DNA from: Nymphaea colorata
Lineage: Eukaryota > Streptophyta > Magnoliopsida > Nymphaeales > Nymphaeaceae
DNA length: 64,000 nt
Reading direction: 5' to 3'
NCBI RefSeq assembly: GCF_008831285.2
Contig: NC_045140.1
Span: 5,621,528-5,685,527, forward strand
Below the pieces are notes generated by a model that made no database searches, had not been told where the DNA came from, and was given only the letters and a program-made list of their open reading frames with translations. Positions 12,252 to 56,590 of the stretch are shown here, piece by piece (within the stretch, counting starts at the first letter, position 1; each line of letters opens with the position of its first letter). The translations under genes were made by a program, and so were the position numbers.

Positions 12252-13388
12252 TCATTGGTTGCCAGTGGAGCCGCTGTTGTAAGAGGTGTGCTTGGCGGAG
12301 GAGCCCTTGCAGAGTTTGACGGGGTATTTGATAGCGTTGAGCTGCAGCTTGCGCAGGGCCGCGCTGCCGAGATCCACGCCGCAGATGTCGGCGAGCCTCA
12401 CCAGGTAGAGCAGCACGTCCGACAGCTCCTCGCCCAGGTGCTCCTTCTCCTCCGCCTTCCAGTCCGGCAGCCCCTTCGGCACCTCTCCCTTCCACTGGAA
12501 TATCTCAGACAGTTCTCCCACCTCTCCCACCTATACGCACAGCACGCCCCCACAAATCGGAAGTCACCAAAAAGGACCAAACAACAGCCAAATGCACAAC
12601 TACTCTATGCATTAACACATTCGCCCACAGATTCTTCGGCAGTAGTCTGTGTTGTATACTTTAAAATGTAAATCTAACAGATGGTATTGCAAACGGCTGA
12701 CGAATGTGGTTTACCACTCACCACCAAGAAATTTTTATTCACAAACACAAAAAAAAAGGTAGAGGATTCATAGGCTCTTAGGTTTTGGCCTTCCTTCTTT
12801 TCTTAAAGAATGTAAAGCGTGGGGTCCTTTAATGGATGTTAAATGCTATATTCAAGCTAGTATGTTAGCCTAGAAAAGGAGAGATGCATATTACCATATG
12901 ATAGGCTGTCATGGGGAAAATAGACATCTAGCTATCTACAAAGGGAAGGTGATTTCAGTGTTAAAAAAGAAAACTTATCAATGAAACCAAAGCAAAACTA
13001 GGGTTTCGTTTGTATCTCAACAACAAGAACAAGAGAAATTTGTATTTTCTATTGCGGAAAAAAGGAAAACCCCAAGAACCAAACGCAATCTCCTGATGTA
13101 ATTGTGAAGGGATGTAGAAGAAAACCAATGTTTTCTCCCAAGCAACAGAAAAATAAGGAGAAACCATCTGAAAAACCAAGGCATGGGGCTTCTAGAGAGA
13201 GAAGGGCGAAAAGGGTAGGAAGCGAATGGGCATACCAGGGCGAGGAGCAAGTTCCTGGGACTGTGGAACCGATCCCAATCCCTTTCTTTGGCAAACTCGG
13301 CCATCTTCTCCCTCAGTTCTTCGAGGGTAACGCTCTTGCAGGACTTTCCGTTCTCTCGGTGGTCGCTTTCCGTCTTCACGCCGTCCAT
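12252..13388 (-). CDS. DCTPP1: dCTP pyrophosphatase 1 (MazG-like NTP pyrophosphohydrolase)
   Basis: Two exons on the minus strand: 13388-13236, with donor GTATG, and 12530-12252, with acceptor TATAG and stop TGA. They join in frame (153 + 279 nt) to encode 143 residues, close to the roughly 140 usual for plant homologues. Exon 1 has SVTLEELREKMAEFAKERDW and FHSPRNLLLAL. Exon 2 opens with VGEVGELSEIFQWKGE and continues through EEKEHLGEELSDVLLYLVRL and ADICGVDL. The acidic residues of GEVGELSE and EELSDVLLYL are the Mg2+-binding EXXE...EXXD set of all-alpha MazG pyrophosphatases. The family hydrolyses dCTP and modified dCTPs (such as 5-methyl-dCTP) to dCMP and pyrophosphate, cleaning the nucleotide pool. 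The 705-bp intron is simple. The substrate is inferred from the family. Confidence 0.93.
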
Positions 13389-13760
13389 CTCTCTGGACTT
13401 CGGCCGGAAAGTTATCGGAGTGCAAAAACGAAACAGACGTAGGGAGAGAGAGGGAGGTGGGTATCAATAGGAGAGGAGAGTCAGGAGACGCATTTTATGT
13501 GGGAAGCACGGGCCTCACGCCTGGGGGCTACCGGCTATCGGCAGTTTCTCGGTCACATTTTAAAGAGAGAGCGATACGTGTCAACTGCGGGTAGAGTGGG
13601 AAAGGTGAACGGCCGCCCGGCACTACCCGCTACCTCCGGTTTTCCGGTCGGCCGGCCGGCCGGCCGATTGCCTGTGGGACCCACAAAGTATCCCCATCTG
13701 ATGGGGTTGGTACCATATTCTCTTCCTTCCGGCAACGTCGACAGAAATTCCTCCTCCTCC
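13389..13760 (-). promoter_or_regulatory. Probable DCTPP1 promoter and 5' UTR, GC-rich
   Basis: This upstream region is much more GC-rich than its surroundings and includes an alternating GGCC run at 13649-13666 that is nearly self-complementary. A purine-rich stretch next to the ATG (CT-rich in the transcript) looks like a leader. The promoter role is inferred from position and composition only. Confidence 0.45.
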
Positions 13761-35578: not shown

Positions 35579-38500
35579 ATGGCGATTGGAGATGAATTGG
35601 GTGCTTCTGAGAAGAAATTGAAGAGTGGTAACATTGATGTGCCTATCTTTAACGCTGAGAATTTGCAGAACAATATGAAAATTATCTATTACAGGTTCTT
35701 TTTTGAATCCCTGCGATCCTTTGATGTACTGTTTTTTTTTTTTTCTTTTAAGCGTGCAGATTTTTTTAGAATATTTATGGATGAAAGTCAAGGTATACTT
35801 TTGGCGTTCATTGTGCATTTTCCTTTAAGTTAGGAAAAATCGGCTACTTTAGCAAGCTTTACTGGCGGATGTACTGCAGTTGCACCTAGGTTTATGCTTG
35901 CTCCGTGGTACCATGAGCACCAGCAAGGCCAGACCCAAATTATCCATTCAACTGGTAGAAGATCATAGTTGTTATGGTGGCTAATATGAGATTATGATGG
36001 TTTTAAGTCTTAAACACCTGGCTCCTTGCATTTCATACCAGTCTCTGGATTCTATGTTAGTTCTTCTGGATACTAGCTGCTACTATTGTTTAGTAGTAAA
36101 TATTCGTCTGCGTGAACCGTACATGGCCAATAAAAGATGAATTCATGTTGGTAACTGTCCACTAATTTACTCTCTGGTAACACATTGCAAATAGGGAATG
36201 AGAATCTGATTTGAGAAAAGGAAGCCAGAGAGATCCTTACTGTAACATGTTAATTGGTAGAGTTGAAATAAGCTTGTTTCTGAATATGATTGTCTCAGTC
36301 ACTTGTGTAAGATGGACTTAAGTACTTAAATTTATGTACTTAAGGAATTTGCTTAATTAGTTCTGTGATAGCTCGTTAAAACTTAGTATGTGTTAAGTTA
36401 GAAAGTAGGGAAGCACAGATGGGAGTAGCACAATAGTTTTATACAGCGAACAGTTAGTAGGAAATATATCTTGTTGAATGAAACAAATAAGTGGTTGTTC
36501 CAGCCTCCCAGGAGGCTTTAACGCAACAATCCCAATAGAGATGGACTTTCAGTAACATCTATAAGTATCTAATCATTAATTTTTTACTGCTATTTGCATG
36601 ATACTCACTGTAACACTGTTTCATCTAGCTCATTTCAGGGTTTCCTGAAAACTCAATTGTTAGACAAGTTTTAAGCTGCAATACATTGTGTATGAGGTCG
36701 GATGTTATTTCTTCGAATTAATTGTATAGATAAGAAATCTTGATTACCGATTGTTCGTTTATTCTGTTTGCAACAAACCTAAGGCATAAAAAGGTTATAC
36801 AAGAAAATTTTCAGAATTTAATGCTTTCGTCAGATAATACATCTTTTGGTAGCACATATGAAGCGATTTTCCATCATAAGACATCCAAAGGTCCTTTCCT
36901 ATGTGCATTAGTAAGAATATACTTGAAGATATTTCAAGCAAATAGCAATGATGTAGCTCCTAAGTATCTGAAATTACTCAAAACAACAGTCAAATTCATA
37001 CAACGAAGTTTCCTTGAGTGCATATGAAGCTATGTAAAGCACGAGGTGCTGCCTAGACAGTGCATTGCACATATAGCATAAGTGGGTGCGATATGGAGCT
37101 GGACATCCAAGAAAATATTTAAAAAAAATACACTCTTAAATGTAAGAACTGTTAGAAAAAATATATTTCTCGATTAGAAAGTGACTATTGATTTATAATT
37201 ACAACAGTTAGAACACACCATTTGTACATTAGACATATCATAACATGAATAAGTAAATATAATTAAAACTTTAAGAGTTCCAAAGGTTAAGTTTAACAGC
37301 TATGCAACATAAAAAGAGCAAATGTGCAATTTAACATCGATGCTCCTCAATGTCTATGGCACATGGAAAATCTTCTAAATTTCTAAAATCCCAACTTCTA
37401 TCTCTAATTTAATTTCTCAAGCCTAGACAAGCCCAAGCTAGAACCTGCAATAAGTAGTTTGATATGAAAGGGGAAGGTACGTAAATCATCAACATATATT
37501 CATCATAGTTCCATGTTAATGTTGCTTGTTATATATGGCCAACTAAAAGCTGGAAAAACACATAAATGTTAAGTAAAAGGGTATTACATATTCAAACAAT
37601 AATAGTATATATATCCCCATGCTTCTGGTGCAAAATCATATGCAACATCAAGAAGAGTGAGGAAACGAAAATCTGCATAAAAGCAGGAGAAAAATAAAAA
37701 TAAATAAATTAATGAAAAGAAAGAAAGCAGCCGAAGAATGAGACGGAAGAACAATTGAAGAAGAGAAAAATGGCAAAGTAAAAAAATGGAAAAAGACTGA
37801 ATTAGATAGGCAGCAACAAAAAACAAGTGGGAGAAGAAAAAGAAGCCAAGAAAAAGCACAAAGAAATTAAAAAATCTGCCTCAGATTGAAGAAGAATAAT
37901 TGGAAGAATAACTCCAGATGGCAGAAAGGGAACAGAATGGGAGAAGGAAATAAAAGGAAGAAGAATAAAGGAAGAGAAAGACCAGATGTATCTCGGACAG
38001 ACAAGAAAAGACGATGCCTATCCAGGTGTCCTTGGCAATTACTTGAGTGTTTTCATGGGGCAAGTGAACTAGGAAATGGTATGAACGTTAATAAGCAAGA
38101 TTGTTAGCAAGAGTTAAACCAAGTTCACATTCAATGACCATTTCTTTCAACTAACTCACTGCAAGTAGCTCTGTGCTCTATCATTGTTATACGTCGTATC
38201 GTACGATACGTATCTTATCGTTTACAAAATACGATAAGATACACCCCATGTATCGTAAATAGGGGCGTATCGTGCATGTATTGTACGATATGTACGATAC
38301 AGGCCCCCGTATCGTATGATACGGGTTGATTTAAAAAAAGGGGGGCTTGAATCCCTCTTTTTCGAGTTTTCTTTATAAAACCCGCCCCTTCATTTCTAAC
38401 CTAGAGATTGTGCCGCCGTGGAGGGAAATCATTGATTTTCACCGTGAAATAATCGATTAAACCATGAATTTTTGTGTGGGTGGCTGATTGTCGTTGGGAG

Positions 38501-40838
38501 GAAAGGGGTTTTTTTAAATCGTGAAGATGAAGATGAAGAAGAAGATGGAGATGAGGATGAGAATGAATATGATGAAGATTATGAATGAGAGACGAGAGTG
38601 CTTTCATTTTATATGTCTTGATATTGAACATTTTCACAATTTCATTATCATCTTGTGATATAATACATAATATCTAAAACTTGTTTTTTGATGTGGCATC
38701 TCATAGACTTATGGACCTTATGACTTATGAATCTATGGTTATGAAATTATGATATATGTTATGTAATTGTTGACTTGTTGTGCTTTCTAGATTGATATTG
38801 TTATGAATTTTGATGCTTACGAATGATGAACCATAACTTTATAGCAATAATAAGTCTTATCATTTTCCAAAACATGTTTTTTCTGAAGAACATATTATTC
38901 TTGATGATTTTTACTATTTTTTATGAAATTTTCGATTTTTTTTCCTATTTTTTCTGATTGATTAAAAAAAAAACGATACGGTTACGATACGTTACGATAT
39001 TTTACGATACGGCGTATCTTAAAGCCAGACCGATACGGCTTACGATACGCTTTTTACAACATTGTGCTCTATGACTTCTATTCCTTCTTAGTTTGATGCA
39101 GTTGACATAACAAGCGTGCCCAAGATTCTTCCTATCAAAACAGATGATAGTTGATAGCTCAAAAAAGAAAACGACAATGTTATGATGTGAAATTTCCTAT
39201 TAGTGCCTATTCATCAATGCTTCAATTTATCAGTCTGGTTCTTCAGGATTCTGTTGGCTGAAATATGGTGCAAGATCCATAATCAAGCTCCCCTATCTTA
39301 TCATGTTAGGCCTGGTTGTGTGGCATTTTTCTTTATGTCACAGTTTATTTACCACAAGAGTTGTGCACTGTTCTTCGTTTCATGATGCTCTATTGAATCT
39401 TTCACAGCCCTTCTACTTAATTTGTTGCTTTCATATTTATTTCATCACAGAAAACCAAATATCATTAGACAAGGACGATTCCAATCCCATGAATACCGAA
39501 CAATATGCATTTTAAAGATGTTAATGTTAGTATTTGTTTGACAAAGGAAAAAGGAAAAAATACTGGAGGAATGTGTGTTCAGTAATTGTTGGGTATCGAC
39601 CATAACTCACCTTTTTTTTCCCAAAACTAGGTTTGTACCAAAATTTAGCTCAGATGCTTTATTAATTATGGTTCTGCAATATTTGTCATCTTAAAGGAAG
39701 CTTGGCTATGAAACAATAGAAACATTTACTGTGCTTCGTTCTCTGTCTGCAGCCGCACCTTTTTATCCATTATTGGTGGTGTGGTAGCTGGAATTTTGGG
39801 GTTCACTGGTATGATGGGCTTCATATTTTATTTCCTGATTATGGCGGTAACTTCTCTGGGAATTGCAATAAAGGCAAAGTTTTCTATTCATAACTACTTC
39901 GATTCTTGGAACCGGGTTCTGCTTGATGGCTTCTTTGGCGGCCTTATGGTATGTTGCTATCTCTGAGGTTTTATCTGTAGCTGACAGTTTCCTTTGATAT
40001 AAAGATGTGATGTGCAATGCATAAAATGCTTTATTTGGGTTATCATTGAGCATCACTCGTATACCAGTAAAGGCACAGTATCTGGGTGCCAGAACATATT
40101 GTGGTGAAACTGAAACTGAAACTGAAAAAAGAACTAGTTTGACCCTTCAAACCAGGAAAAATAAAGTTGTGCTAGTACTGAGCATATCCATGCCAAGGCT
40201 GCAGCAAATCCAGAAATTGATTGTTATTGCTTGAGCTTCCCTTTCTTTCCTTTTTGCAATTTCAGAAAGATATCTAGACCTTAGCTGAATACAGTGCATG
40301 ATCCGTAAGTTGTTGTCCATGTTTCATACACTGCTAAACTTGTAGCTCTCTATATGGTCGCTTTATTTTCTTCTTATTTCCATTCCATTTATCATCATAT
40401 TTAATGAGGGAGAATATTGTTTCTGGGGTTGTCCCGGGCATGCCCTTATGGTGATAGAAAAAAATGAGTTTAACCGACGTAGTTAGTAATAAGTCATCTG
40501 TTTGTCATGCTCATAGTCTTCCAATATCGATTCCCTTTTCCTCCCTACTGTTTTTATGCTGGCATCAAGTGTAAAATTTTACCTATTTTCAATTTCTTGG
40601 CCTATTAATTGTATGTTGAAATGTTTAAGGATCTACTAACTTTGTTTTTCCTTTATTGCAGTCGTTCGTGCTCTTCTGGACGTATCCTTATTATTTTGTG
40701 GTCCTTGTTTTCAGAATCTATAAAACTCTTTAAGTTGTTCTCAACGAGTTGCTTATGCCTATCATGATTAGTTTCATGTTTGTGAATCTTTTCCTTAATG
40801 TTCTTAGATTTGCGTATGACATTGTGCATATATTCTGA
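35579..40838 (+). CDS. EMC6: ER membrane protein complex subunit 6 (EMC6)
   Basis: Four exons: 35579-35694, 39753-39948, 40662-40681 (only 20 nt) and 40808-40838 (TGA), all GT-AG and in frame, giving 120 residues. Exon 1 has a hydrophilic N-terminus and VPIFNAENLQNNMKIIYYS. Exon 2 encodes RTFLSIIGGVVAGILGFTGM, MGFIFYFLIM and a loop with SIHNYFDSWNRVLLDGFFGG. Exons 3-4 give SFVLFWTFAYDIVHIF. The three hydrophobic segments, GILGFTG, GFIFYFL and the LFWTF(A/L)YxxVH(I/V)(F/Y) end are EMC6 hallmarks. EMC6 is the conserved membrane core of the EMC insertase, which places tail-anchored and multipass proteins in the ER membrane. Intron 1 is 4058 bp, carries an 882-bp MULE insertion, and falls mostly within an inverted duplication with 46.4-51.8 kb. 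Confidence 0.94.
38182..39063. mobile_element. Mutator-like non-autonomous element in EMC6 intron 1
   Basis: 882 bp flanked by perfect 9-bp duplications GTGCTCTAT (38173-38181 and 39064-39072). The termini are inverted: CATTGTTATACGTCGTATCG at the left against AATGTTGTAAAAAGCGTATC read inward from the right, and both arms are filled with CGTATCG/CGATACG words. The interior has a GATGAAGATGAAGAAG simple repeat and no transposase. The matching site in the right duplication arm (near 48990) has no insertion, showing it landed after the duplication or was never in that arm. Confidence 0.9.
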
Positions 40839-40916
40839 GAGCTGATAACAAAGATTTTGTGGTTCGAGGGCATTGGAGGACAATTGACTCTTAGAAGAAT
40901 ATGATGTTTGCTGAGA

Positions 40917-40998
40917 GTTTATGTTTGGCTACTCAGAAGATCCGAACAATTTTGAAAGTTTATATTTGGCTACTCAGTAGATCTGAACAATTTTGAAG
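40917..40998. repeat. 41-bp tandem duplication in the EMC6 3' UTR
   Basis: Two adjacent units read GTTTAT(G/A)TTTGGCTACTCAG, then AGATC(C/T)GAACAATTTTGAA. The right arm (about 47290-47330) has only one unit. Confidence 0.85.
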
Positions 40999-41890
40999 TT
41001 CCTTGTAATATTTTATTCATGTTCTTTACGCTAGAGATTTATTCCTTTATGGATGTAGAATTTCTGCAGCAGAAAGAAAATGATTTGTTCTGAGTACATA
41101 TTTTGCTTTCTCGAACCAGCACGAAGATTGCTTTCCTTAACCAAGCTAAATTGGAAGATCAAATACAAATTGATCTTGGAATTCACTCGAGAGCTAAGAT
41201 TCTCAGGGGATGCTTTTATGGCTTTCAAATATGTGTGCCTTCTCTCACCTGTTTTATTAATTATAAACCGAAGTATAGTTTATTATATCATCGACACTTG
41301 TTCTGTATCTTTGTTCTATTTTCATTTGTTTTCACTATCTTTTGAATGCAAACCTTTCAAATCACATGTTTTGTACCTTGATTTGGATTTTATTTATTTT
41401 TTACTAACATCGATCTGTTGCAGGCAGCTCATGAAAACAGCCACTTTATTGCTTAATTCTTTTTTTACATTTAACTATGTGAAGTTTTGACAAGGAGATG
41501 AAGTGAAAAAATGTTTTATTAATTTTGCAGCTATTTGCAGCAGAAACAGATTATATAACATTTGTCTGGTGGGTACTGATGACAGCACATCCCATAAATA
41601 TAATCCTTCTTTTCTCATCATTGCTAAAAAGACGAGCATCTCCGAATATGTTAGTGGTGCACTTTCTTGAAAATTTTCTGACCTTGTCAAGACATACCCC
41701 ATTTTATCAGCTTGGCATGACCGACAGATCGTGCACGATTGGGGTGGGATGGATGTGAAACTAAGAAAGGCCAACCCAACGTGAAACTAAGAAAGACCAT
41801 ATGCTACTGCATAAGAAATGCACTGTTAACTGCAAGTACCAAAACCACCTGAAAAACATGTTTCTTAGAAGCATCGGAAATGGCAGCAGT

Positions 41891-43071
41891 GTTAACGCTA
41901 TGGCTGGGTCTGAAAGCTGGGACGTTATCACGTTGGATTACATTTCCAGAATAAGTGGTCCCTGTCGGTGTCATTGCTGTACCATAGATAAATATATTTG
42001 TGGTTGAATAACGTAAATAAAATATATTAATGATTCTTTTCTGCGTTTGAATTATAGGGATACAAGTTTAGTACTGTATTTCCTTCCTGCTGGGCTGAAA
42101 GTGGTCAAATGAAAGATTCGTTTCACCGCAAGTAGTGCATTCATGGCATAAAATGAAACTACTCCAATAGCTGTGCTCCTTCCGCCCATGCAAGAGAGAG
42201 AGACTGCCACATTATCCAGATTTTCTAGTTCTCTACCAGGAACAAGAACAGTATACAAGCTACCAAAATCTCAACAGTTCTATATTTCATCATCATGCAA
42301 GACCTTACACCAACTCAGCGTGATTTCGTATCCTTTTACAGGCTCCCTCACTCCAAGAACTTACTCCAACTAAGGAATCATTTCTTCTTAGTATCAGTCC
42401 CTAACAAGGAAACGCATGTACAAAAGACTCATATGATCTTACAGTAAAAATTTGGATAGCACTTCTCTGAAGCTGACCAGGATTCAAAATCAACTGAAGT
42501 TTTCAACATCCCTTGAACCTGTGCAGCATGAGATTGTTGCTCATCAACTTAGAACAAAGTGTAAGTAGACCTTCAAAGCGGGCTTATACGAATGTTACAA
42601 AGAGATCCTTTCAGTGTGTTTATGACCATTTTAACATGCATTCTCCATTGAATTATTGGATAATTTACCAAAATACAACACGATCAGACAGACTCTGGCT
42701 AGACAAGATGGTTGTCCGGCATTTTCCACACACACACACACACACATACACAAAGAGAGAGAGAGGTGGGGATCACCTGCCTAACATATCAAGCAAGCGG
42801 GGTAAATTGTCCATGTGTTTTAGGTCAAGTAAAAGAATAATTACATGAACAATCCGGAACCAATAAAGTGGCTACAAACAAATCTCAAAAGAAAATTATG
42901 TCATAGTTCAAAGCCAAAGCTCCAAATCTTGCTAAACAACTTTCTTTTCAGCTCTATGTTTACCTAGTTGTACATCACTTGTACTGCAAAAAGAGACATG
43001 AAATGCCAAGATAAGAAGTTTACGCCTTTGTTATTTGATTCTCCGGCTCATATGAAATTTGGTAAAAAAAA
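41891..43071. other. Left part of the inverted-repeat spacer, nothing recognised
   Basis: No gene. A (CA)n run lies at 42729-42745, followed by a short AGAGAGAG patch. Open frames here are short and without recognisable domains. Confidence 0.4.
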
Positions 43072-43099
43072 ATGGATAACATGGGGTTAAGAATTGGTG

Positions 43100-43770
43100 A
43101 TGAAATTAGCTCATGCTATCGCGTCCATCAAACGCAGTTTTTCCTTTGTTACAAGGCTTGTCCAGTGTCTCCTTTTCTCTTCTGCGCGGAAGTGAAAAGT
43201 CTATTCTTATTCAGCGACAACGAGGTCTTTCCGAACCAGTTTCCATCCTTGGATATCATGGCAATTTTGTCTAACATGCAAGTACATGTTTTATGTCCTT
43301 GCTTCTCATCTTATGATTATTCGGTATGGCTTCAAGGATTAAAATTATCAAGAACAACTGTAAGGTGGACATGGTTAGAGGTGGCGAAGGTGTTTAATTG
43401 TAAGGCAGGAGATTTAATCCTCAACTAGTTAGGTCACCCTCTTCTTATGTCTTATGGAGAATTAATCATGGCACTCAATTATCGATAAGTTATAAGGGAA
43501 ATTATAACCATAGAAATCTCATTCCACCTCTTTCAGGCTGCATCGCTCTCATCAAACATGTCCTCACCTCCCTGCCTCATTCCCTCATGTCCATATTCTT
43601 CATGCCGACCACAGCTGAGAAGACTATAAATAGTATTCTCAAAAAATTCATGTGGGGTGTCACTTCTAATAATTATGAGAGCCACCCAAAAATTCTTGTG
43701 GGAAGGTGCTTCTAATCATTGTAAGAGGCATTTTGTTAGCTGATCCTAGAGGTTACCAAGTCGTTGATCA
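43100..43770 (+). pseudogene. LINE reverse-transcriptase fragment (palm to thumb), plus strand
   Basis: Plus-strand reading: ACPVSPFLF (RT motif RQGCPLSPFLF), then SSYDYSVWLQGLKLS, where the catalytic FADD has become SSYDY, then WLEVAKVFNCKAG. At 43541-43690, IALIKHVLTSLPHSLMSIFF and KKFMWG match the thumb region of plant L1-type LINEs (RIxLIKSVLxSIPxYxMSxF...FLWG). Broken by stops. Orientation is opposite to the neighbouring LINE piece at 43799-45450. Confidence 0.75.
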
Positions 43771-43798
43771 AGCGAATCTCTCGTGATCGGAGACAACC

Positions 43799-45450
43799 TT
43801 ATATAGCCCGAGTTGCTAAAGCAATTGGCCTGAAGTTTTGAATCCTACTAGCATTCTCCTTTTTGAGGACGACCAGATGAGAACAATCTATGATATACTT
43901 AGGTTTCTTGGCCAGCTTACCTGTCATTAGGAAAGAGTTATCCATCTTCGTGATCTCTCTGCCTATCAAATCCCAATAAGATGCTAGAAACCCGTCCAGC
44001 CCTAGAGCACTATCTGCGTCGGAGGTGAATACAATGCTTTTCATCTCCTCTATCAACGTGGGTCAGAGGAGGAACATATTTTCTTTACCCATGACCTGCA
44101 AACCAAAATCAGAGCCCAGAAAGAACTCACCATTGCCATCTTCCGTCGCCAAGAGATCAATAAAATCTGCCTCACAAACCTGTTTAATGTATGCCGGATC
44201 CTTTGTGATACCCTGATTCCCTTCAATCCTACCAATAGAGTTTTTAGTGGCTCTACCTTTCACCAGAATCACCACCACAGGAAAGAATGTTGTATTAGTC
44301 TCCTTCTGCAATCCACCTGACTCTAGATGTCGGACACCAAGCACGCTAATCTTCTAAGGGAGTATATTGAACCTCTTGTTTGAGTGTCAAAAGCTAAGTT
44401 TCCGCGCCCCACATACCATCTTCAGTCTCTCTCTCAGCCACATCAATAGCAGCCCAAAGGCTTCTAATTGTATCGTGAGGAGTACCAAGAGCTTTCAACT
44501 ATTCTGAAAGTTTCACTCTAGCAGCCTCAAGATGGTTGATCAATCTGATTTTTTTTGGGTGAGTGGGGTTTTGACCCACCGCCGAAATCTGAAGCCCCCA
44601 CCCAACCTTTCATCCCCGGTACAAACCCTGCATAGGTGCCTCAAGATGCTGTCTTTGCCACGCTCCAACTTATGTGTCAGTGACCCTTTGTTTGCAGCAC
44701 AGAGAGTTGGTCTTTGGAGAATCAAAGTGAAGACTGGTCACCTGCCAATGCTATTCAATCTCGTTGGACCAACCCCTTGAGGTTCTGATTATTCAATCTG
44801 ATTGCAAGGCACTTGTATACAGGCAGCTACCAAACCTACTCAACAATTTGTCTGCACTCCTCATGTCTGCTCCAATGTTTAAAGTAGCCGAACATGCCAT
44901 GCCTACTGGGAGACTGAGTAACGAACCTAACATTGAACAGTAGAGGCAAGCGATCTGAATAAACAATAGGAAGAAATTTGAGAAAACCATTGCTCCATTT
45001 CTCCTGCTAGGAACGATAAAGTTATTAACAAAGCACCGGTCGAGCCTACACCAAACGCTTGTCTTCCAATCTATTACTTGACCAAGTAAATCTTCGATTA
45101 GGATCTTTCAGGCAACCAGGTCACCATTAGGATATGAGAGTACCGACATTAGGCTCTGTCCCGGTTTTGTCAGCGAAACCCGACATGACATTAAAATCTC
45201 CTCACAACAGAGGTAAGAACAGCATCACCCACCTAAAAAAAGGACCTTCCTACGAACAACCGGATCGTTTTGCGTACACACGCCACCAGTAAAAAGTTGC
45301 CTCCAGATTCTTTATCGATCCCAGGCTCCCACAATTCCAGCAATGCCTTCACAAGAAGAGGCGTTGGCAGCAACTGCGTAATTCAGGAAGCACTCCACCT
45401 TCGGACTTTATCTTCATGTGGCATATCAAGCTGAAACCAAATTTCTGGTC
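43799..45450 (-). pseudogene. LINE ORF2 fragment (endonuclease end to RT fingers), minus strand
   Basis: Minus-strand pieces in order: an endonuclease-like DFNV region and RRFTW motif (about 45220-45060, frames broken); YSDRLPLLFNVRF and FGYFKHWSRHEECRQIVEQVW (about 44970-44830); the linker VRHLESGG...NTTFF with NSIGRIEGNQGI (44344-44190); ADFIDLLATEDG; then SALGLDGFLASYWDLIG (RT finger ADSALGPDGF) and KKENASRIQNFRPIALA at 43940-43800. These are L1-type ORF2 signatures. A SINE sits inside at 44551-44792. Confidence 0.8.
44551..44792 (-). mobile_element. SINE nested in the LINE fragment
   Basis: 242 bp flanked by perfect 11-bp duplications TCAATCTGATT (44540-44550 and 44793-44803). A T-run at its left edge is the A-tail in minus orientation. 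In the minus-strand sense there is an A-box-like TAGCATTGGCAGG and, about 35 nt on, a B-box-like TTTGATTCTCC, consistent with a tRNA-type Pol III promoter. Removing it restores the LINE reading across the site. A second short copy is at 32966-33083. Confidence 0.82.
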
Positions 45451-46380
45451 TCTATTCAATAATGAGCGAAAAACATTCGTTGTGGCCTGCTCTGCAAGCA
45501 AGTCCGTGGATGTTCATGAAGAGGCTGATGGCAAGACATGAACAATAGGGGGAAACCATGCTGCTTCTTGTTGCCCCATATCTTGTTTATCCATCTCAAA
45601 CTCAATTGCATCGTCTGGAGCTCTACAGGCTCCTTGTCTTTTGCCGTCAGACCGGTCTTCGGACTCCCACTGAAGAAGGTTACCAAGTCCCTTCAGCAGG
45701 GGTCTATTCCACTATCCCTTTCTTGAGCAATTCTTGTTCGAGAGCGACTCTCCTTTGCGTAGACAGGCAGAAAGCCCTTTCTCACCGACACCTTCTGGAG
45801 TTACCGACTTAAAAGGAAAAACCAAGCAGGAGGTTCTCCTCTGATTCCCCCATAAAAGGATAGTCCAGTATAATCGGCGATGCTTACAACGACTTGTTTC
45901 CGCCAGAAAACTCTGGGAGGTCGGATTGTGGGGAGTCTGATTTACGGTGTGTTGGGCTGACCAGTGTCCTCTAGGTCGTCCATTAAAGGCGAGAAGCTGT
46001 TTCCCTTCGCCATCAATTTGATTGACAAGTTCTCTCTAGATGGTTGGCGGCGCATTCCATGCCTCTCGTATTGGTGACAGTTTCTCCACTACTAGACTTT
46101 ACCATGCTCTATTGACTCCATACATCCACCGGTTCAAAAGCGTTATGTGTAGGGTAAGGAACCTGCTCTAAAGACAAAGATTCAAACATGGTTAGTTATA
46201 CAAGAAAGGATTCAAACTCAACTAAATCTGCATACACGGGGCTTTCAGTCCCCAAGTAGGAGTTTTTAATAGTCCCATAGTGAAAAAAAACTAAACACTT
46301 ACTTACCGACCTTACTTCGCGAACCCCTGTTTTGTTCTTAGGCCAAATAAAGTAGTAAGGGACCCTATTTTTTGCACTGC
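45451..46380. other. Right part of the inverted-repeat spacer
   Basis: Probably the upstream, more decayed end of the minus-strand LINE. I could not align it to a named domain. No gene supported. Confidence 0.35.
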
Positions 46381-47596
46381 AGCCACTTCCGATGCTTCCA
46401 AGCGATTTATGTTTCCCAGGTGATTTTGGTAGCTCTAGAGAGTGATTCACTTGAAGTTAACTAACAGACAATTTCCTATGCAGTAGGGTTGCATATGGCC
46501 TCTCTTAGTTTCCATCCATCTCCATCGGCATTGCCAAGCTAGTAAAATGCAAAATGCAATTTTCAGTTAATCAGTTTTGACTTAACAAAATCAGAAATTT
46601 TCAAGAAAATGCACCACTTGACGGATTTGGAGATGCTTGTCTTTTTTAGCAGTGATGAGAAAAGGAGGATTATATCTATGGGATCTGCTGTCATCAGTAC
46701 CACCAGGCAACTGCTATAATCTGTTTCTGCTGCAAATATCTGCAATATTAATAAAACTTTTTTACTTCATTTCCCTGTCAAAACCTCCAATGGTCAAATG
46801 TAACAAAAATTAGGCAATAAAGTGGCTGTCTTCATGAACTGCCTCCAACAGATCGATGTTAGCAAAAAAGAAAAATCCAAATCAAGATACTGAGCACATG
46901 ATTTGAAAGGTTTTGCATTCAAATGATGGTGAAAACAAATGAAAAATAGAACAATGATCAAGAGGAAGTATCGACAATATGATAAAGTCTACTTTGGTTT
47001 ATATTTTATAAAACAGGTGAGAGGAGGCACGCATATTTGAAAGCCACAAAAGTATTTCCCCTGAGAATCTTGAGAGCTCTCAAGGGTGAATTCCAAAAGT
47101 AATTTGTAATTGATCTTCGGTTTTTTAGCAAATTCAGCTTGGCTAAGGAAAGTAACCTCTGTGCTGGTTTGAGAAAGCAAAATATGTACTCAGAACAAAT
47201 TCTCACCTCTTTGCTGCAGAAACTCTGCATCCATAAAGGATTAAATCTCTAGCATAAAGAACATGAATGAGATATTACAAGGAACTTCAAAATTGTTCAC
47301 ATCTTCTGAGTAGCCAAAGATAAATTCTCAGTTTGAATTCTTCTGAGAGTCAATCGACCTTTAATGCTCTCCAAACCACAAAATCTTCGTTATCAGCTGT
47401 CAGAATATATGCACGATGTCATATGCAAATCTAAGAACTTAAGGAAAAGATTCACAAACATGCAACTAAGCACGATAAGCATAAGAAACTCATTGAGAAA
47501 AATTTTAAACTCTTTACAGATTCTGAAAGCAAGAACCACATAAATAATAAGGATACATCCAGAAGAGCACAAATGACTGCAATAAAGGAAAAACAA

Positions 47597-47738
47597 AGTT
47601 GCTAGATCCTCAAACATTTCAACCTACAATTAATAGGCCATGAATTAAAAAAATAGGTAAACTTTTAAGTTGCTAGATCCTCAAACATTTCAACCTACAA
47701 TTAATAGGCCATGAATTGAAAAAATAGGTAAACTTTTA
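47597..47738. repeat. 71-bp tandem duplication
   Basis: Two adjacent units (47597-47667 and 47668-47738) differ by a single base (GAATTAAAAA against GAATTGAAAA), so the duplication is recent. The left arm has a single unit near 40580-40640. Confidence 0.92.
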
Positions 47739-48160
47739 CACTTAATTCCAGCCAAAACCAGTGGGGAGGAAAAGGGAATGGATATTGGAAGACTATGAGC
47801 ATGACAAACAGATGACTTATTGCTAACTGTGCCTGTGTAACAGGCAAGCCTCTTGGTGCCTGATTAAACTAATTTTTTCTATCAACATAAGGGCATACCT
47901 AGGACAACCCCAAAAACAATATTCTCCCTCATTAAAAATGATGATAAATGAAAATGGAAATAAGAAGAAAATAACACCAGCATACAGAGAGCTACAAGTT
48001 TAGCAGTTTATGAAACATGGTCAACAGCTTACGGATCATGCACTGTATTCAGCTAAGCCTATAGATATTTTTCTGAAATTGCAAAAAGGAAAGAAAGGGA
48101 AGCTCAAGCAATAAAAATCAATTGCTGGACTAGCTCTAGCCTTTGCATGGATAAGCTCAG

Positions 48161-48228
48161 TATTAGCACAGGTTTATTCTTCCTGGTTTGCAGGTTAGCA
48201 CAGGTTTATTCTTCATGGTTTGCAGGAT
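48161..48228. repeat. ~34-bp tandem duplication
   Basis: TTAGCACAGGTTTATTCTTC followed by (C/A)TGGTTTGCAGG appears twice in tandem in the right arm only. Confidence 0.85.
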
Positions 48229-49789
48229 CAAACGATTTGGTTTTCAATTTCACCACTATATGTTCCAGAACATAGATGTGGTGGCTTTATTGGTATGATG
48301 CTGAATGATACCCAAATAAAGCATCTATACATGACTCATATTACATCATTATATTACAGGAAGTGTTAGCTACAGATAAGACCTCAAAGTTAGCAACATA
48401 CCATAAGGCTGCCAAAGAAGCCATCAAGCAGAACCCGGTTCCAAGAGTCAAAGTAGTTACGAATAGAAAACCTTCCCTTTTCTTGCAATTCCCAGAGAAG
48501 TTACTGCCATAATCAAGAAATAAAATATAAAGCCCATCATATGAGCGAATCCTATCACACCACCAATAATGGACAAAAAAGTGTGGCTGCAGATGGGGAA
48601 AGAAGCACAGTAAACGTTGCTATTGTTTCATAGCCAAGCTTCCTTTAAGATGATAAATATCGGATAACTGTAATTAATAAATCATCTGAGTTAAATTGTG
48701 GTACACACCTAGTTTTGGGAAAAAGGGGTGAGTTATGGTCGATAACCCAACAATTACTGAACATATATTCCTCCAGTTTTTTTTCTCAGCCAACAGAAAT
48801 CCTGAAGAACCAGTTTGGCTGATAGATCGAAGCTTTGATGTGTAGGCATTAATATGAAATTTGACATCATAACATTGTTCTTTTCTTTTTTGAGTAATCA
48901 ATTATTTTCCATTTCGATACGAAGAATCTTGGGCATGCTCGTTATGTCAACAGCAACAAACTAGGAAGGAATAGAAATCATAAATCAGAGCTACTTGCAG
49001 TGAGTTCGTAGAGAGATATGCAGTGATTAAATGTGAACTTGGTTTAACTCTTGCTAACAATCTTTGTTTATTACTATGGAGATACCCTTTTGCCACATGA
49101 AAACATTTTAAGTAATTGCTAAAGGCACCTGGATAGACATCGTTTCCTTTCTTTTCTGTTTGAGATAGATCTGCTTTCTCTTACTTTGTTTATTCATCTT
49201 CCTTTTCTTTCCTTCTGCCATTCTGTTCCTTTTCTGCCATCTGGAGAAAATTCTTCTTATTATTCTTCTTCCTCTACAATCTGAGGCAGCTTTTTTTCTC
49301 TTTTCTTTTGCTTCTTTTTCTTCTTCCTCGTGCTTTTCTGTTGCTGCTGCTGCCTATCTGATTCAGTTTCTTTCCATTTTTTTCTTTGCCAGTTTTCCTC
49401 TTGTTGTTTCGTCTCGTTCTTCTGATATTTCTTTCTTTTCATTAATTTCTTTCTTCGTATTTTCTTCTGTTTTTGTGCAGATTTTCTTTTCCTTGCTCTT
49501 CTTGATGTTGCATGTGATTTTGCACTAGAAGCATGACGATATAGATAGTTTAAATATGTAATATCTTTTTACTTAACATTTGTATGTTTGTTCAGTTTTT
49601 AGTTGCCATATATTTGTTCTTAATATTTTTTTTATAATGATTATAATGGAAGGCAGTTCCATGACAAGGAACATGAACATGGAAACTGAGATGAATAAGT
49701 TGAGGATTTATGTACCTTCTGTTTTTATACCAAACTACTAATTTAGGTTCTAGCTTGGGCTTTTAGGCTTGAGATTTGAGACTAACATT

Positions 49790-50141
49790 GTCACAAATAT
49801 CGTTTTCAGGTATCAAACAGCAAGGTTTTTCTTGGGTATAATCTAATAGAGTTGTTTTTCTCGGGAAAATCTCGGCAAGTTTTTAAAAAGTTAAAAAAGA
49901 AAGATCCTACTAATAACATGTTAAAGAACTAAAAGAATGTAAACAAATGCAAAGATATGCAAACAATAAAAAATGAAAAAAATGGAAAAAAGTGAATAAA
50001 TTGCAAGAGTGTCAAAAAAACGTGTTTATTTTACATTTTGGCATTTTTTTCAAAAAACACGTTTTCCCACTTTTTTCGTCTGACCTGTTCTTTTACATTT
50101 CTTTGATGCTTTTTTTTTTAATAAAACATGTTTTCTGTGAC
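49790..50141. mobile_element. Mutator-type MITE, GTCACA family (copy 1)
   Basis: 352 bp beginning GTCACAAATATCGTTTTC and ending CATGTTTTCTGTGAC, with flanks ACTAACATT and ACTGAATTC that are weakly alike over 9 bp. Shares CAGCAAGGTTTTTCT(T/C)GGGTATAAT with the copy at 51328. Absent at the matching left-arm site (about 37405). Confidence 0.75.
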
Positions 50142-51327
50142 ACTGAATTCAAGATAGCAGTTGGAATTTTAGAAAAGTAGAAGATTTTCTATGTGCTATA
50201 GACATTGACGACCATTGATGTTAAATTGTAAATTCGCTCTTTTTATGTTACAATATATAGCCATTAAACTATCTTTCAAGCTTTTAATTATATTTACTTT
50301 TCATGTTATGATATGTTTAATGTATAAATCATATGTTCTAACTGTTTTAATTATAGATTAATAGTCATTTTCTAATCAAGGGATATATTTTTGTAAAAAG
50401 TTGTCACGTGTAAGAGTGTATTTATTTTTTAAAATATTTTCTTGGATGTCTAGTACCATACCGCACCTACCTATGCTAATTCACTGCCTAGGCAGCACTT
50501 CGTGCTTTTGACTACATAGCTTCATATGCACTCAAGCAAATTGAATTTAACAGTTGTTTCGAATAATTTCAAATACTTAAAAGGAGCTAAACCATTGTAA
50601 CAACTTGAAACATCTACAAGTACATTATTACTAACGTATATAGGGAAGGACCTCTGGATATGTTATGATGGGAAATAGCTTCATATGTGCTACCAAGAGA
50701 TGTGTTATCTGACTAAAGCATTAAATTCTGAAATTTTGCTTGCATAACCTTTTACGCGCTGGGTTTGTTGCAAACAGAATCCATAAACAATGATATATGC
50801 TAGTATTCTGCAAATAATTAACTTTTTTCATATGCAAGATGAAAGTGTAAGCAGGAAATTAAATTTCATGTAATTGAGATTGCTTATCTATACAGTTCAC
50901 TTGAGGAAATAACATCCAACCTCATTCACAATGTATTGCAGTTTAAAACTTGTCTTACAATCGAGTTTTCAGGAAACCCTGAAATGCGTTGGGTGAAACT
51001 GTGGGCATCATGCATTCGCAGCAAAAAATTAATGTTTACACTTGGAGATATTACTGAAAGTCTATCTATCTTGGGATGGTTGCTTGAAGCTTCCCAGAAG
51101 GCTGGAATGATAACCTATTTGTTTCTAGAACTCAGTGTGCTTATACATTAACAGCATCTATTTCCTACTAGATGTTTGCTGTATAAAATTATTGTGCTAG
51201 TCTCATCTATCGTTCCCTATTTTCAAGCTTAAGAGAGTACTAAGTTTTATCTATCACAGATCTAATTAATCAAATTTCTTAAGTACAAAAATGAAAGTAC
51301 TTAAGTCCATCTTTGACATTTAAAATA

Positions 51328-51714
51328 GTCACAAATAACGTTTTGAAGTTTTAAACAGCAAGGTTTTTCTCGGGTATAATACGACGAGTTTGAAAAAAAA
51401 GGGAAAAAATACGGTGATTTTTTAAAAATTTTAAAAAACCAAAAATGGGAGAAAAATAAAATTAGTGAGAAATTAATAACACAAACATCACAAGATAAGT
51501 AGATTTGCAACAAAGAAAAAATATAAAATGAAAAAAAAAATGTTTGGCATTAAAAAAACTGAAAAAAAATGAAAAAAGTGAGAAAAAAACGCGTTTTTTT
51601 CGTTTTTAATGTTTTTTTCAAAAAAACGCGTTTCTCTTTTTCTAAGTTTTAAACGGCCATTTAATTTATCGCATTTTTTTGCCTTTTTCTCGAAAAAAAC
51701 ATGTTTTCTATGAC
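51328..51714. mobile_element. Mutator-type MITE, GTCACA family (copy 2)
   Basis: 387 bp, GTCACAAATAACGTTTTG to CATGTTTTCTATGAC. Flanking 9-mers TTTAAAATA (51319-51327) and TATTAAATA (51715-51723) match at 7 of 9. Contains inverted AAAAAACGCGTTTTTT words near its centre. Absent from the left arm, where CACTTGTG joins directly to TAAGATGG near 36305. Confidence 0.8.
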
Positions 51715-52254
51715 TATTAAATACACAAGTTACTGAGACAATCATATTCAAAAAGAAGCTTATATAAACCCTAGCAAGTAACATGCTACTTAATATTCTT
51801 CAATAAGTTTATCTCTGGCTTTCTCTTCTCAAATCAGATTCTTAATACCAGTAAACTAGCAAAAAAAACGCATTTTTTTCTTAAAAAGGGAAGATTTATA
51901 ATCACTATAAATAACCACAGATATATGTTAAGGAGCTTGTATTAGTTTTTACATGAAGAATTGTAGATGAGCCAAAAACTTAAACTTGCAAGTAAGAAAC
52001 AGAACCAAGCAAAATGTTCCAGAAACACAACCAATAATATTTCAGGGTAAAAGTCACCTTGATAAATATGCGGCAATTTTGGTTCAGGTAGTTACCTTTA
52101 GGAGATGGGCGCAAAATGTGCAGTAACACAACTCTGGAAATGCTCTCCTTGAAGCATAGACAACTAGTTGACTTCACCAGAGAATGATGCATCTTCTATC
52201 AACCAGAAGCTCTCACGATTCAAAATGCCTATGAATCTGTTCTCAGTTTTCCTA

Positions 52255-54810
52255 TCAATTTTTTGTCAACATTTTCGTAACAACCCCAAGATCATCAACA
52301 CTCTGTACTGACGGAATGCATCCCTGTTCAATAATAGTTTTCACATCTACAAGGGAGAGATCATCTTCACATATTTTGCACAGTAACTTCAACAGTGATA
52401 CGTAAGACTTTTCATCAGGAGTAGGGCACTTCTCTTTTTCAATCATCTCTCTCAAAATGCTTAAAGCTGCAACAAAATCTTCCTCGACCACAAATACATT
52501 TACCAGTTCTACAAAGAGAAAGGAGTCTGGATCGAAGCCCTTGATCTGCATGTCACGATAAAACTGCAGTGCAGTATGTACTCTGTTGCACTTGCATAGT
52601 CCACTTATCAAAGCTGTATATGCTATCCTGTTTGGAGAACAACCTTTCTTTTCCATCTCATTCCACAGCCTTAGGGCATCCTCCACTCTTCCAGAATTGC
52701 ACAGTCCGTGCACTAAAGTCGTGTAAGTAATCACGTTGGGCGGCCTTGCTTTAGAATTCATTTTGGAAAACCAAAAAAGTGCCAGGTCAACCCTCTCATT
52801 CTTGCACCATGCATCAATTATTGAATTATAACTAACCACTGAGGGTACGAGACCCTTCTCCAACACCTCGTTCAAAAGGTTTTCAGCCTCAGGTATTCTT
52901 CCAGCCTTGCAAAATCCATGCATGAGAATGTTATGACACACCATATCAGGAATACAACCATTTTTAGACATGTCATGGAAGAGCTTTACAGCATTGTCCA
53001 GTTCTCCCTTTTTGCACAGTCCATGTATAACTGTGGAATAGACGATCATATCTGGTTGTACTCCTGCTTGAACCATGCTATCCAAGAAATTACATGCTTC
53101 TATTACCTTTCCTCTAACACATAACTTCTTTACAAGCAAGGTACAATGCTTTATCCATGGTTCACATCCCTCAGTTTGCATCTCCTTAATCAGGTCAATG
53201 GCACCGTCCACATTCTCTCTTCTACAAAGACAACCAAATATGGAATTGTAAGTAAAGTGGTTGGGCTCAAAGCCAGAGTCCTTCATATTTTTTACAACAA
53301 GCTGAGCTTCCTCGAACCTATCGAAGTTGCATAGTTCATGGATTAGATTATTGTAAATCAGCTGATTTCCTTTACATCCTATTCTTCGCATATCTTTCAA
53401 AAGCTCCAAGGCAGAGTCCAAGTTGGAGCTCTTACATAAACCGCCTAAAACAATACTAAAAGAAGAAACATTTGGCAGCTCGCCCTTCAGTTTCAAGGAC
53501 ACCATGCTTAGAGTCTTCAAAATGTGTTCCGTAGGCTCACCTGTTGCTGATGCCACCATCACTTGCAAAAGTGATCGAGCTTTTTCCACCTCACCACACG
53601 CCACAAACCCTTCAAGAACTGCATTATAAATGAAAATCGAGCTACCTATGTTCAAAATTTTTGCTTCTTCGAGCAACTTCTCCAAAATTTCCATCTTTCC
53701 CTCTGTACATGATGCTGCTACAAGATTACCAATGATTGCTTTATCAGGAAACAGCCCCGAGTCCCTCATCTCCATATATAGATTAAAAGCTTTAAAATAT
53801 TCTTTGTTCTTACAGAGATCCTCAATAATCACACTGTATAAACCCACGTCCCTTCCAATACCATCTTCCTTCATCTTATCGAGTAGCACCAAAGCCATGT
53901 CAATTCTATTTTCCTGCTTAAACCCATGGATCAAAACATGGTAGGTCTTCTTATTCAAATTCAGATTCATTCTCTCCATTCCTTCTATCAATTCAAAAGC
54001 CTTATCAACGGCCCCAGATTTGCTAAATCCAAGAATCAGGATCGTGAATGCATGTTCATCAGCCCATCCATTAGCGCACATCTTATCAAGAATTCCCATA
54101 GCTTCAGTCAATCTCCCGGAATTGCAGTATGCCTGAAGAACGGCTGTCAATGTAAACTTATCAGCTCTCAGACCAGAATCATTCATCTCCTTCAACCTGA
54201 CCTCCAGTGAGTCATAGCGCCTGCATTTTGTCAAGGCCTCCAACAAACAAGTATAGGTATAGCTACTAGGAACACAATGCATCATCCCAGCGTGATCGAA
54301 CACATAATTCGCTTCATCAGCCAATCCTACGCTACCCAAACACCTTATCAGGAAGCCCAATGATCCAGCCGTCATGGAACACCTGCTCCCAACCATGTTC
54401 TTCACCAGCACCATCAATGGACTCTTCTGGTTAGCTCTAGACAAAATTGAAGCCATGGCATTGAAGGTATAACGGTTGTGCCTAAACCCATCTTGTTTTT
54501 CAGCCCACAAGAAGAACTCGTAGGCACAATTCCATCCACACTTCAGCTCTCTCAAAACAGACTCCACAGTCTCAGTGGTGAGAGTCCTCCCCAATACACA
54601 CAACATCTCCTCGCGGTTTCTTTGCACTGGTTTCTTGGAGAATATCGACCAGAGATCATAAACGGGATTGACGGGGAAATACTCAAACGAGTCGGAGGAC
54701 GCAAGGTCATTAAAATAGTTGGATATGGTGGAAAGGGCGCGGACCCCGCCAAAAACGTTTACATCTCTAAATGAGGATAAGAAGCGACTAGTTTGCATGA
54801 AAGAACCCAT
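52255..54810 (-). CDS. P-class pentatricopeptide repeat protein (At5g08310-like), organellar
   Basis: Intronless 851-residue frame. The frame stays open upstream to an ATG at 55095, but I chose the ATG at 54810. From there the N-terminus (MGSFMQTSRFLSSFRDVNVF, then GGVRALSTISNYF) looks like a mitochondrial presequence, whereas the extra 95 residues are hydrophobic and non-PPR. From about residue 150 to 820 the protein is a chain of roughly 18-20 35-residue PPR motifs (for example VITYTTLVHGLCNSGRVEDA; RIAYTALISGLCKCNRVHTA). No E, DYW or SMR domain is present. Stretches such as DGFRHNRYTFNAMASILSRA and EPWIKHCTLLVKKLC match my memory of Arabidopsis At5g08310. P-class PPRs bind organellar RNA for stability, splicing or translation; the RNA target is not predictable here. 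Confidence 0.93.
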   Translation of the reverse strand: MGSFMQTSRFLSSFRDVNVFGGVRALSTISNYFNDLASSDSFEYFPVNPVYDLWSIFSKKPVQRNREEMLCVLGRTLTTETVESVLRELKCGWNCAYEFFLWAEKQDGFRHNRYTFNAMASILSRANQKSPLMVLVKNMVGSRCSMTAGSLGFLIRCLGSVGLADEANYVFDHAGMMHCVPSSYTYTCLLEALTKCRRYDSLEVRLKEMNDSGLRADKFTLTAVLQAYCNSGRLTEAMGILDKMCANGWADEHAFTILILGFSKSGAVDKAFELIEGMERMNLNLNKKTYHVLIHGFKQENRIDMALVLLDKMKEDGIGRDVGLYSVIIEDLCKNKEYFKAFNLYMEMRDSGLFPDKAIIGNLVAASCTEGKMEILEKLLEEAKILNIGSSIFIYNAVLEGFVACGEVEKARSLLQVMVASATGEPTEHILKTLSMVSLKLKGELPNVSSFSIVLGGLCKSSNLDSALELLKDMRRIGCKGNQLIYNNLIHELCNFDRFEEAQLVVKNMKDSGFEPNHFTYNSIFGCLCRRENVDGAIDLIKEMQTEGCEPWIKHCTLLVKKLCVRGKVIEACNFLDSMVQAGVQPDMIVYSTVIHGLCKKGELDNAVKLFHDMSKNGCIPDMVCHNILMHGFCKAGRIPEAENLLNEVLEKGLVPSVVSYNSIIDAWCKNERVDLALFWFSKMNSKARPPNVITYTTLVHGLCNSGRVEDALRLWNEMEKKGCSPNRIAYTALISGLCKCNRVHTALQFYRDMQIKGFDPDSFLFVELVNVFVVEEDFVAALSILREMIEKEKCPTPDEKSYVSLLKLLCKICEDDLSLVDVKTIIEQGCIPSVQSVDDLGVVTKMLTKN

Positions 54811-56590
54811 CGAGATGAAGCTCAAAGAGGAGAAGAGAAGCAGACCTGTCTCCACCTGAGAGAGGTGAGGAAATGTCAATGGAGTCGGGAGAATCACAAC
54901 CAGGTGTAATACTCGAAGCAGGAAACAAGTCTTTTTCCAGCGATGTTTGGGCGGGAGGAAGAAACAGATGAATACGAAAAATTTCGAAGTGGGGATTACC
55001 AGAAGTCCATCAAAGTCTGTGAGGCGAGTTGCAGAGGGAAGGAAGAACAGGGAACCAGGTGGTATCACAAGGCATGGAAAATTTTGTGCTTCCACAACAG
55101 TCGTTTACCCAGATATAATGTAACCATTAGGATTGGACTTGGACCTGTTTCTTTTACCATCCTGAACCCATACGATCAATTAAGGAGCCAGTGTCTACCG
55201 GTTCAAAATGTTTTAGAACCGAAATTGGGGCATTCTGGTTGATTATTTTATGCACTCTCTGACATCTTTTGTGGGTTATGTTAACTTGTACATTTACTTA
55301 TTTGAAAGTTCAAGATTTAGATTCAAACTTGGTTTGTCTAGTGTCTATAATCTATCGCGTACATTTATGTGTTTATGTCGTTAAAGTGACCTTTATTTTG
55401 TTAATTAACTTGTTTTAAACATTAGACGCATGAATATGATAGTATGCATGAATTTATGTGAGTAATACTCGGGCCAGAAGAAGGCTTCTGCTTGGCATTG
55501 TGGTCTCTTTTATTTAGGCATTTTTGGTACAGAAGGTGGCATCTCTCTATAGCTGCAAAGGTTGTGTCAATAATTACTTAAAATCATGGATAGGAAAATT
55601 GATGCACATACCATTCCTTTGAGTTCCTAACTCACAGTGCTAGTGAAATACAGAAGTTATTATTATATTACTTGCCTGCTTACTCTAATTGCACTTCCTT
55701 GATGGGTAGGCTGATCTAATACGTAATTTCAAATTCCATTCTAGAGATTCGATAGCTCCGATTAGGTTACCCATAAAGAGTAAATGATCAATTTATCATA
55801 TAAGCTGTTATTGCAAAGAGTAGTTAGTGAGGGGTCGGCGTTCTGTCCTATCCTGTCTTCTTGTTCGGACCTGCATTTAGATGCTTCGAATTGCTTGATT
55901 CTAGACATTAATTACTGCGAAATTGCATGCTTCTGGGCCTTTGCTGGCTGGTTACACAAGGAAACGTTCAACTTGATCAAGCTTCTATCATGATTTGTAA
56001 ATAAAAGGAGGAATATGACATAGTTGGCTCTTAAACTTTGCTGAAAATGGGTAGCTATGAGTAGAAGGAACATTGAGGAAGCCATGCACATTGGTTGTAA
56101 TCTTGTGATTTTGGTCAGAATGCTTCATCTATATATAATTCTGCTCATTGGGATGTTACATGATATAATGCTTTTTACATTGTTGAATTAAAGGTTCGTC
56201 ATCTGGATTTTGAACTCGGACATATCAGCTAGCTTGTGTGATTTTGAGACTTAGTGTATTTGAAGTTTTGAACTATTAGCGGAATCAAAAAAATTTTCTG
56301 GTGAGGGCACTCATTCAATACCTATAAGTTTTTTGGGGCACTTACCTGTATAACAATCAAATATGTCAAAACATTAACATACATATTAAACTAATTTTGT
56401 GAAGCTTCCACCATGTGGCTGTACTGCTGTTTTGAACTAGCATTTTTTTCTTTTTTATGGCTTGATTTTTCAAATAAAATGTTATTATGGTAGAAATCTT
56501 GAAGTCACTCAATTAGACGTGCGTTCAGGTGCTTCATTATGCCAGACTACGGTAATATCAATATGAAAGTAAGAAGTTTTTTTTTTTTTT
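54811..56590. other. PPR 5' flank and intergenic DNA, nothing further recognised
   Basis: The PPR leader and promoter lie just to the right of 54810. No other gene is supported. A frame at 55784-55993 is short and unrecognised. Confidence 0.4.

Follow-up and report, generated by a model that had tools for sequence, protein, structure and literature searches.

The stretch of Nymphaea colorata DNA analysed here (64,000 nt, referred to as the window; positions 5621528-5685527 of contig C3 in an assembly of 407.8 Mb and 783 contigs, which was also the genome searched) contains the gene for the membrane-protein helper EMC6 and, downstream of it, a large inverted copy of most of that gene. EMC6 itself is intact, with four coding exons, GT-AG introns and a 120-aa product. 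The coding part of exon 1 (35579-35694, plus strand, as are the other exons) starts with ATG, ends at a GT donor and splices in frame to exon 2 (39753-39948), which has AG/GT borders and matches the Pfam family EMC6 (PF07019, E = 6.8e-16). Exon 2 also matches two PDB sequences (best E = 7.7e-10), both labelled ER membrane protein complex subunit 6. Exon 3 (40662-40681) is a 20-nt microexon, also with AG/GT borders, that keeps the frame into exon 4 (40808-40838, with the stop codon). A second Pfam match to EMC6, on contig C6 (29.2 bits, above the cut-off, with two internal stops), has nothing recognisable in common with the EMC6 of the window by tblastn (best E = 0.16) and was set aside.

An earlier note on this DNA had described two inverse arms at 36.2-41.9 and 46.4-51.8 kb. 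Self-BLAST of the window finds the collinear inverse chain, with a top block of 945 columns at 84% (865 bits), and a permissive-scoring alignment, which extends this chain and sets the arm borders, reproduces those positions almost exactly. Arm A (36194-41891, plus strand) covers most of EMC6 intron 1 together with exons 2-4, and continues for about 1.05 kb past the stop codon. Arm B (46375-51849, minus strand) is its inverted copy and has neither exon 1 nor the upstream sequence. Exons 2-4 thus lie within one arm, as the note had it; this is arm A, and exon 1 falls outside. Arm B is adjoined by a gene for a PPR protein (52255-55104, minus strand; open frame, Pfam PPR_2, E = 5.8e-128), whose 3' end lies about 0.4 kb from the arm.

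Identity between the arms is 82.9% across all 4348 aligned columns, ragged ends included; with these trimmed, it is 83.7% in the outer part (1783 columns) and 86.2% in the inner non-coding part (1837 columns). Divergence is spread along the whole alignment: 19 interior windows of the 21 windows of 200 columns have identities of 0.80-0.905, and only the two end windows are lower. The alignment contains 76 gap runs, 40 in A and 36 in B. Inverted repeats are a known form of assembly artefact, and a fold-back or a chimeric read could in principle produce such arms. An artefact would be near-identical, however, whereas roughly 15% of the aligned sites are mismatched between these arms, which are also set apart by the 76 gap runs and by stretches unique to one arm. 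Identity of about 84-86%, the many indels and the arm-specific insertions thus argue for an old duplication, and we find an artefactual origin scarcely credible. Gene conversion of the inner arm was also considered. An early contrast of 81% in the outer against about 85-89% in the inner part shrank after end trimming to the 83.7% and 86.2% given above (p = 0.03, uncorrected), and gene conversion is therefore not claimed.

The copy of EMC6 in arm B has decayed. Pseudo-exon 2 (48402-48586, minus strand, borders hand-counted from the alignment) carries a 12-bp deletion, a 1-bp insertion that shifts the frame, and several missense changes; in comparison with the EMC6 codons, 12 differences are synonymous and 10 non-synonymous. 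The AG/GT intron borders of exons 2-4 are preserved in arm B also, and introns 2 and 3 are present and alignable with those of arm A. The missing exon 1, the frameshift, the 12-bp deletion and the retained introns identify arm B, at the sequence level, as a non-processed (duplicated) pseudogene without a first exon. A processed pseudogene is ruled out because the introns are still there.

EMC6 pieces in hAT transposons

Searching the genome with the inner arms returned at least 14 and at least 20 matches, the arms themselves included. Pieces of the EMC6 region are dispersed over at least 11 sites, on C5, C2 (two), C7 (two), C4, C10, C11, C12, C13 and C14. Nine of the 11 sites, on seven other contigs, join the EMC6 piece to one common downstream body. 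The C12 site has an EMC6 piece without this body in the stretch examined, and the C14 fragment (C14:2452889-2453289), from the EMC6 3' region, is unlinked to the body and has internal deletions. Eight distinct frames from this body were scanned with Pfam, and three of them, belonging to the copies on C10 and on C7 (8.96 Mb), match hAT domains: Dimer_Tnp_hAT (PF05699; E = 2.5e-14 and 8.3e-12) and hAT-like_RNase-H (PF14372; E = 2.8e-8). By these transposase domains, the body that carries the EMC6 pieces is assigned to a hAT DNA transposon.

The EMC6-region pieces sit just before the transposase region of this hAT family. The C5 copy and the C2 copy at 20.66 Mb have common sequence on the other side of the EMC6 piece as well; the piece is therefore internal to the element. 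The largest piece, on C5, corresponds to window positions 39905-40834 with two interruptions; in arm B, the part that aligns with the hAT-borne fragments is 47404-48451 (minus strand). Frames resembling a Copia retrotransposon adjoin one hAT copy, by eye.

The sites that distinguish A from B show which arm the hAT pieces resemble: ten pieces agree with B at 134 of them and with A at 33. Left out of this count are C5b (21:21), C12 (5:3 while wrongly oriented, 0:6 once reoriented) and the C14 pieces (8:8, 6:5 and 0:29); the two well-aligned C14 pieces together match A 14 times and B 13 times. The simplest reading is that a hAT element captured its piece from the B lineage after the duplication, and that the C14 fragment is an older or separate piece. 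Several points weigh against it. The C5b piece is as close to A as to B and fits a simple capture from B poorly. The third C14 piece matches B 29:0, but lies at the inner edge, where the alignment is poor. Because the hAT copies have a common history, 134:33 amounts to fewer than 167 independent trials, and the changes between A and B are not polarised by any related species. Lastly, five of the eight frames of the common body are without a hAT domain in Pfam.

The recurrence of part of an arm within hAT elements would also be expected if the arms were themselves a mobile element, or had been moved by one. Five hAT copies were compared, however, and their body was not found in the window; no target-site duplication is seen by eye at the arm borders. 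Moreover, the outer arm is dispersed only as short repeats: among the 19 matches listed for outer arm A (36194-38190), one is the arm itself, four fall in arm B and 14 lie elsewhere and measure 49-134 bp, and none of those listed lies in a hAT copy. Mobility of the arms is thus very unlikely, and capture of a piece of the B lineage by a hAT transposon is the reading we retain.

The possible hairpin and the record of C-to-T decay

The earlier note proposed that a transcript crossing both arms would fold into a hairpin containing exons 2-4, and pointed out that configurations of this type are known in plants to feed small-RNA production and silence the parent gene, offering silencing at this locus as an idea. 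The first part agrees with our folding. When a run of 60 A stands in for the spacer, the inner arms fold at -2760.7 kcal/mol, a value without a shuffled control, and inner arm A has 1880 of its 2152 nt paired with B. The same fold has helices of up to 59 bp, 22 of them of at least 21 bp with G-U allowed; exact runs of at least 21 nt shared by A and B number 16, the longest being 45 nt. In rice, an inverted pseudogene pair of 83% identity has small RNAs (PMC2708354), and long endogenous inverted repeats of Arabidopsis such as IR71 are diced (PMC12825306). Given the extent of inner-arm pairing and the rice precedent, the structure is competent to form a hairpin, which is physically possible if one RNA carries both arms.

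Such an RNA would have to be long. EMC6 RNA starting from exon 1 (35.6 kb) would get to arm B only after 10.8 kb. RNA from the PPR gene, which runs through arm B in the EMC6 sense, would need about 10 kb to reach arm A. Each neighbour thus reads its nearer arm in the EMC6 sense, so that antisense EMC6 RNA from either gene requires a run into the far arm.

Lasting silencing may also be sought in the substitutions that separate the arms. Under long-lasting RNA-directed methylation, cytosines in CHG and CHH contexts become methylated, and a C so modified decays to T. We took an excess of C-to-T changes in CHG as a silencing footprint, a criterion inferred in this analysis and not strict. The arm-to-arm BLAST blocks (87.7% identity over 3729 columns) have C-to-T changes at 38/440 CHG and 188/1954 CHH sites (odds ratio 0.89, p = 0.59). 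The control was drawn from one hAT family of this genome, as four disjoint pairs of copies (6447 columns, 87.8%). Pooled, with sites treated as independent, these pairs show 60/266 changes in CHG and 421/3496 in CHH (odds ratio 2.13, p = 5.7e-6), and their CHG decay differs from that of the arms at p = 5e-7. The CHG excess is found in three of the four pairs; the C2b-C4 pair has none (2/24 vs 37/316 in CHH). CG decay is similar in arms and hAT pairs (38/149 and 52/206). A second alignment of the arms gives 52/456 in CHG vs 233/2021 in CHH, and a third a CHG/CHH ratio of 0.97 (bootstrap 0.72-1.28). The CHG excess sought as a footprint of long-term RNA-directed methylation is thus absent from the arms in all three alignments, and this mutational record speaks against lasting silencing of the 24-nt type. 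It cannot exclude post-transcriptional silencing by 21-22-nt RNAs, since that route need not leave a CHG footprint.

These data bear directly on whether the repeat is an active silencing hairpin, in which read-through from EMC6 or the PPR gene spans the arms, folds and, once diced, supplies small RNAs that damp EMC6 expression. The geometry, the pairing of the inner arms, the exact runs and the precedents in rice and Arabidopsis allow it. The need for more than 10 kb of transcription from either neighbour, the lack of CHG-type decay and the intact state of EMC6 count against it, as does a search of the whole window in which no known RNA family (0 matches) reached the Rfam gathering score. The proposal that the arms feed small RNAs and silence their parent is not supported, and we consider it unlikely. 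Alternatively, once the pseudogene arm of the old inverted repeat had given rise to a transposon-borne family of EMC6 fragments, small RNAs could arise from these hAT copies, or from the repeat through a low level of read-through, and act in trans on EMC6 RNA between exon 2 and exon 4. We regard such action in trans as a distant prospect.

Proposed history, age and known counterparts

The geometry of the arms, the pseudogene state of arm B, the hAT-borne EMC6 fragments and their closer likeness to B are observed, and with them in hand we hold it highly probable that an old inverted duplication of an EMC6 segment decayed to a pseudogene and was later sampled by a hAT transposon. We infer a single duplication event and the following order. 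A segment of about 5.5 kb, from inside EMC6 intron 1 to about 1 kb past the stop codon, would have been duplicated, its copy coming to lie inverted in the interval that separates EMC6 from the PPR gene. Arm B, having neither the first exon nor the upstream region, would have decayed as a non-processed pseudogene, with EMC6 remaining intact. The arms would next have diverged, each gaining different insertions. Later, a hAT DNA transposon would have captured about 0.9 kb that reaches from the last part of exon 2 into exon 4, with the B lineage as the likeliest source, and carried this segment to other contigs. The locus, judged from sequence, is without demonstrated function.

The Kimura two-parameter (K2P) distance between the arms is 0.196 for the full alignment and 0.22 for its outer part alone; by our own estimate the trimmed identities correspond to a K2P of about 0.15-0.19. 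The paper on Nymphaea colorata (PMC7015852) dates a duplication with a synonymous divergence (KS) of about 0.9 to 107 million years (Ma) ago, from which a rate of about 4.2e-9 per site per year follows. Assuming equal rates in introns and synonymous sites, the inverted duplication would be roughly 18-26 Ma old.

Each part of this history is a fresh example of an already known kind. The rice pairs (PMC2708354) are likewise adjacent inverted copies of gene segments, with identities of 83% and 96% there and about 84-86% here. Both copies are pseudogenes in rice, whereas one arm is an intact gene here; the rice stems measure 154-185 nt, with a loop of 1283 nt in the case given in detail, in contrast to arms of about 5.5 kb and a spacer of 4.5 kb. 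Arabidopsis IR71 (PMC12825306) has inverted arms of kilobase size, as here. Small RNAs were seen in rice, where loops above 2 kb were left unsearched, and IR71 is transcribed and diced, whereas the present repeat is known from DNA sequence alone. Host-gene fragments within a hAT element, here also on several contigs, recall Pack-TYPE elements and transduplication (PMC8903248). Pack-TYPE elements are defined there as non-autonomous, whereas the elements described here hold remnants of a transposase gene.

The donor, in addition, appears to be a pseudogene arm in our case. Plant MIRNA genes are said to originate by inverted duplication, as Allen and colleagues reportedly put forward in 2004 (Allen et al.). 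The likeness lies in the inverted duplication of part of a gene; the difference is that no known miRNA family is found here at Rfam gathering scores, short stem-loops not having been otherwise sought. A non-exhaustive literature search, by title or abstract opening, found nothing on this EMC6 locus. Its interest is that of a datable case, in a flowering plant of an early-diverging lineage, for the fate of an inverted duplication as large as a gene: the parent gene is still intact, its copy has decayed with no scar of the methylation type, and a piece that seems closest to the copy travels in a transposon. Decay in CHG context, set against a transposon control from the same genome, is a cheap test that may help to separate long-silenced from inert inverted repeats.

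Spacer, arm-specific stretches and other features

The spacer (41892-46374, 4483 bp) contains old dispersed repeats and may be derived in part from long interspersed nuclear elements (LINEs). Among the 44 spacer matches listed genome-wide, one is the spacer itself, 29 fall at about 44541-44791 (67-78%) and 14 within about 42386-43018. The latter segment and window positions 2915-3604 are inverse relatives of one old repeat, at about 80% by self-BLAST. Frames in the spacer look LINE-like by eye; the spacer frames and pieces scanned (with X at stops) gave no Pfam match to a reverse transcriptase or endonuclease, and one piece searched against PDB sequences gave no meaningful match. The description of the spacer as LINE-filled therefore holds weakly, for the old dispersed repeat around 44541-44791 and the LINE-like frames, and finds no domain match in the pieces searched. 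ARAGORN reported 0 matches, and poly(A) signals were scanned but given no weight, plant signals being too loose. Pfam gave no match for a frame at 13017-13463 (minus strand), which by eye resembles a plant dCTP pyrophosphatase.

Two stretches are unique to arm B. One of 366 bp (49776-50141, minus strand) has ends like those of a miniature inverted-repeat transposable element (MITE) by eye, and the ends of the other, of about 400 bp (51319-51721, minus strand), resemble them; similar GTCA...TGAC ends, again by eye, probably place both in one MITE family. Arm B also contains a 72-bp tandem duplication (98.6%, self-BLAST) at 47596-47738. In arm A, 292 bp (39262-39553, plus strand) face a gap in arm B, as does a stretch of 893 bp (38172-39064, plus strand) with a 9-bp direct repeat at its flanks by eye, which is probably an insertion. 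This 893-bp stretch is rich in a TACGATACG-like motif. The observed/expected CpG ratio is 1.6 in 38191-39064 vs 0.53 window-wide, and the stretch looks like a young DNA transposon.

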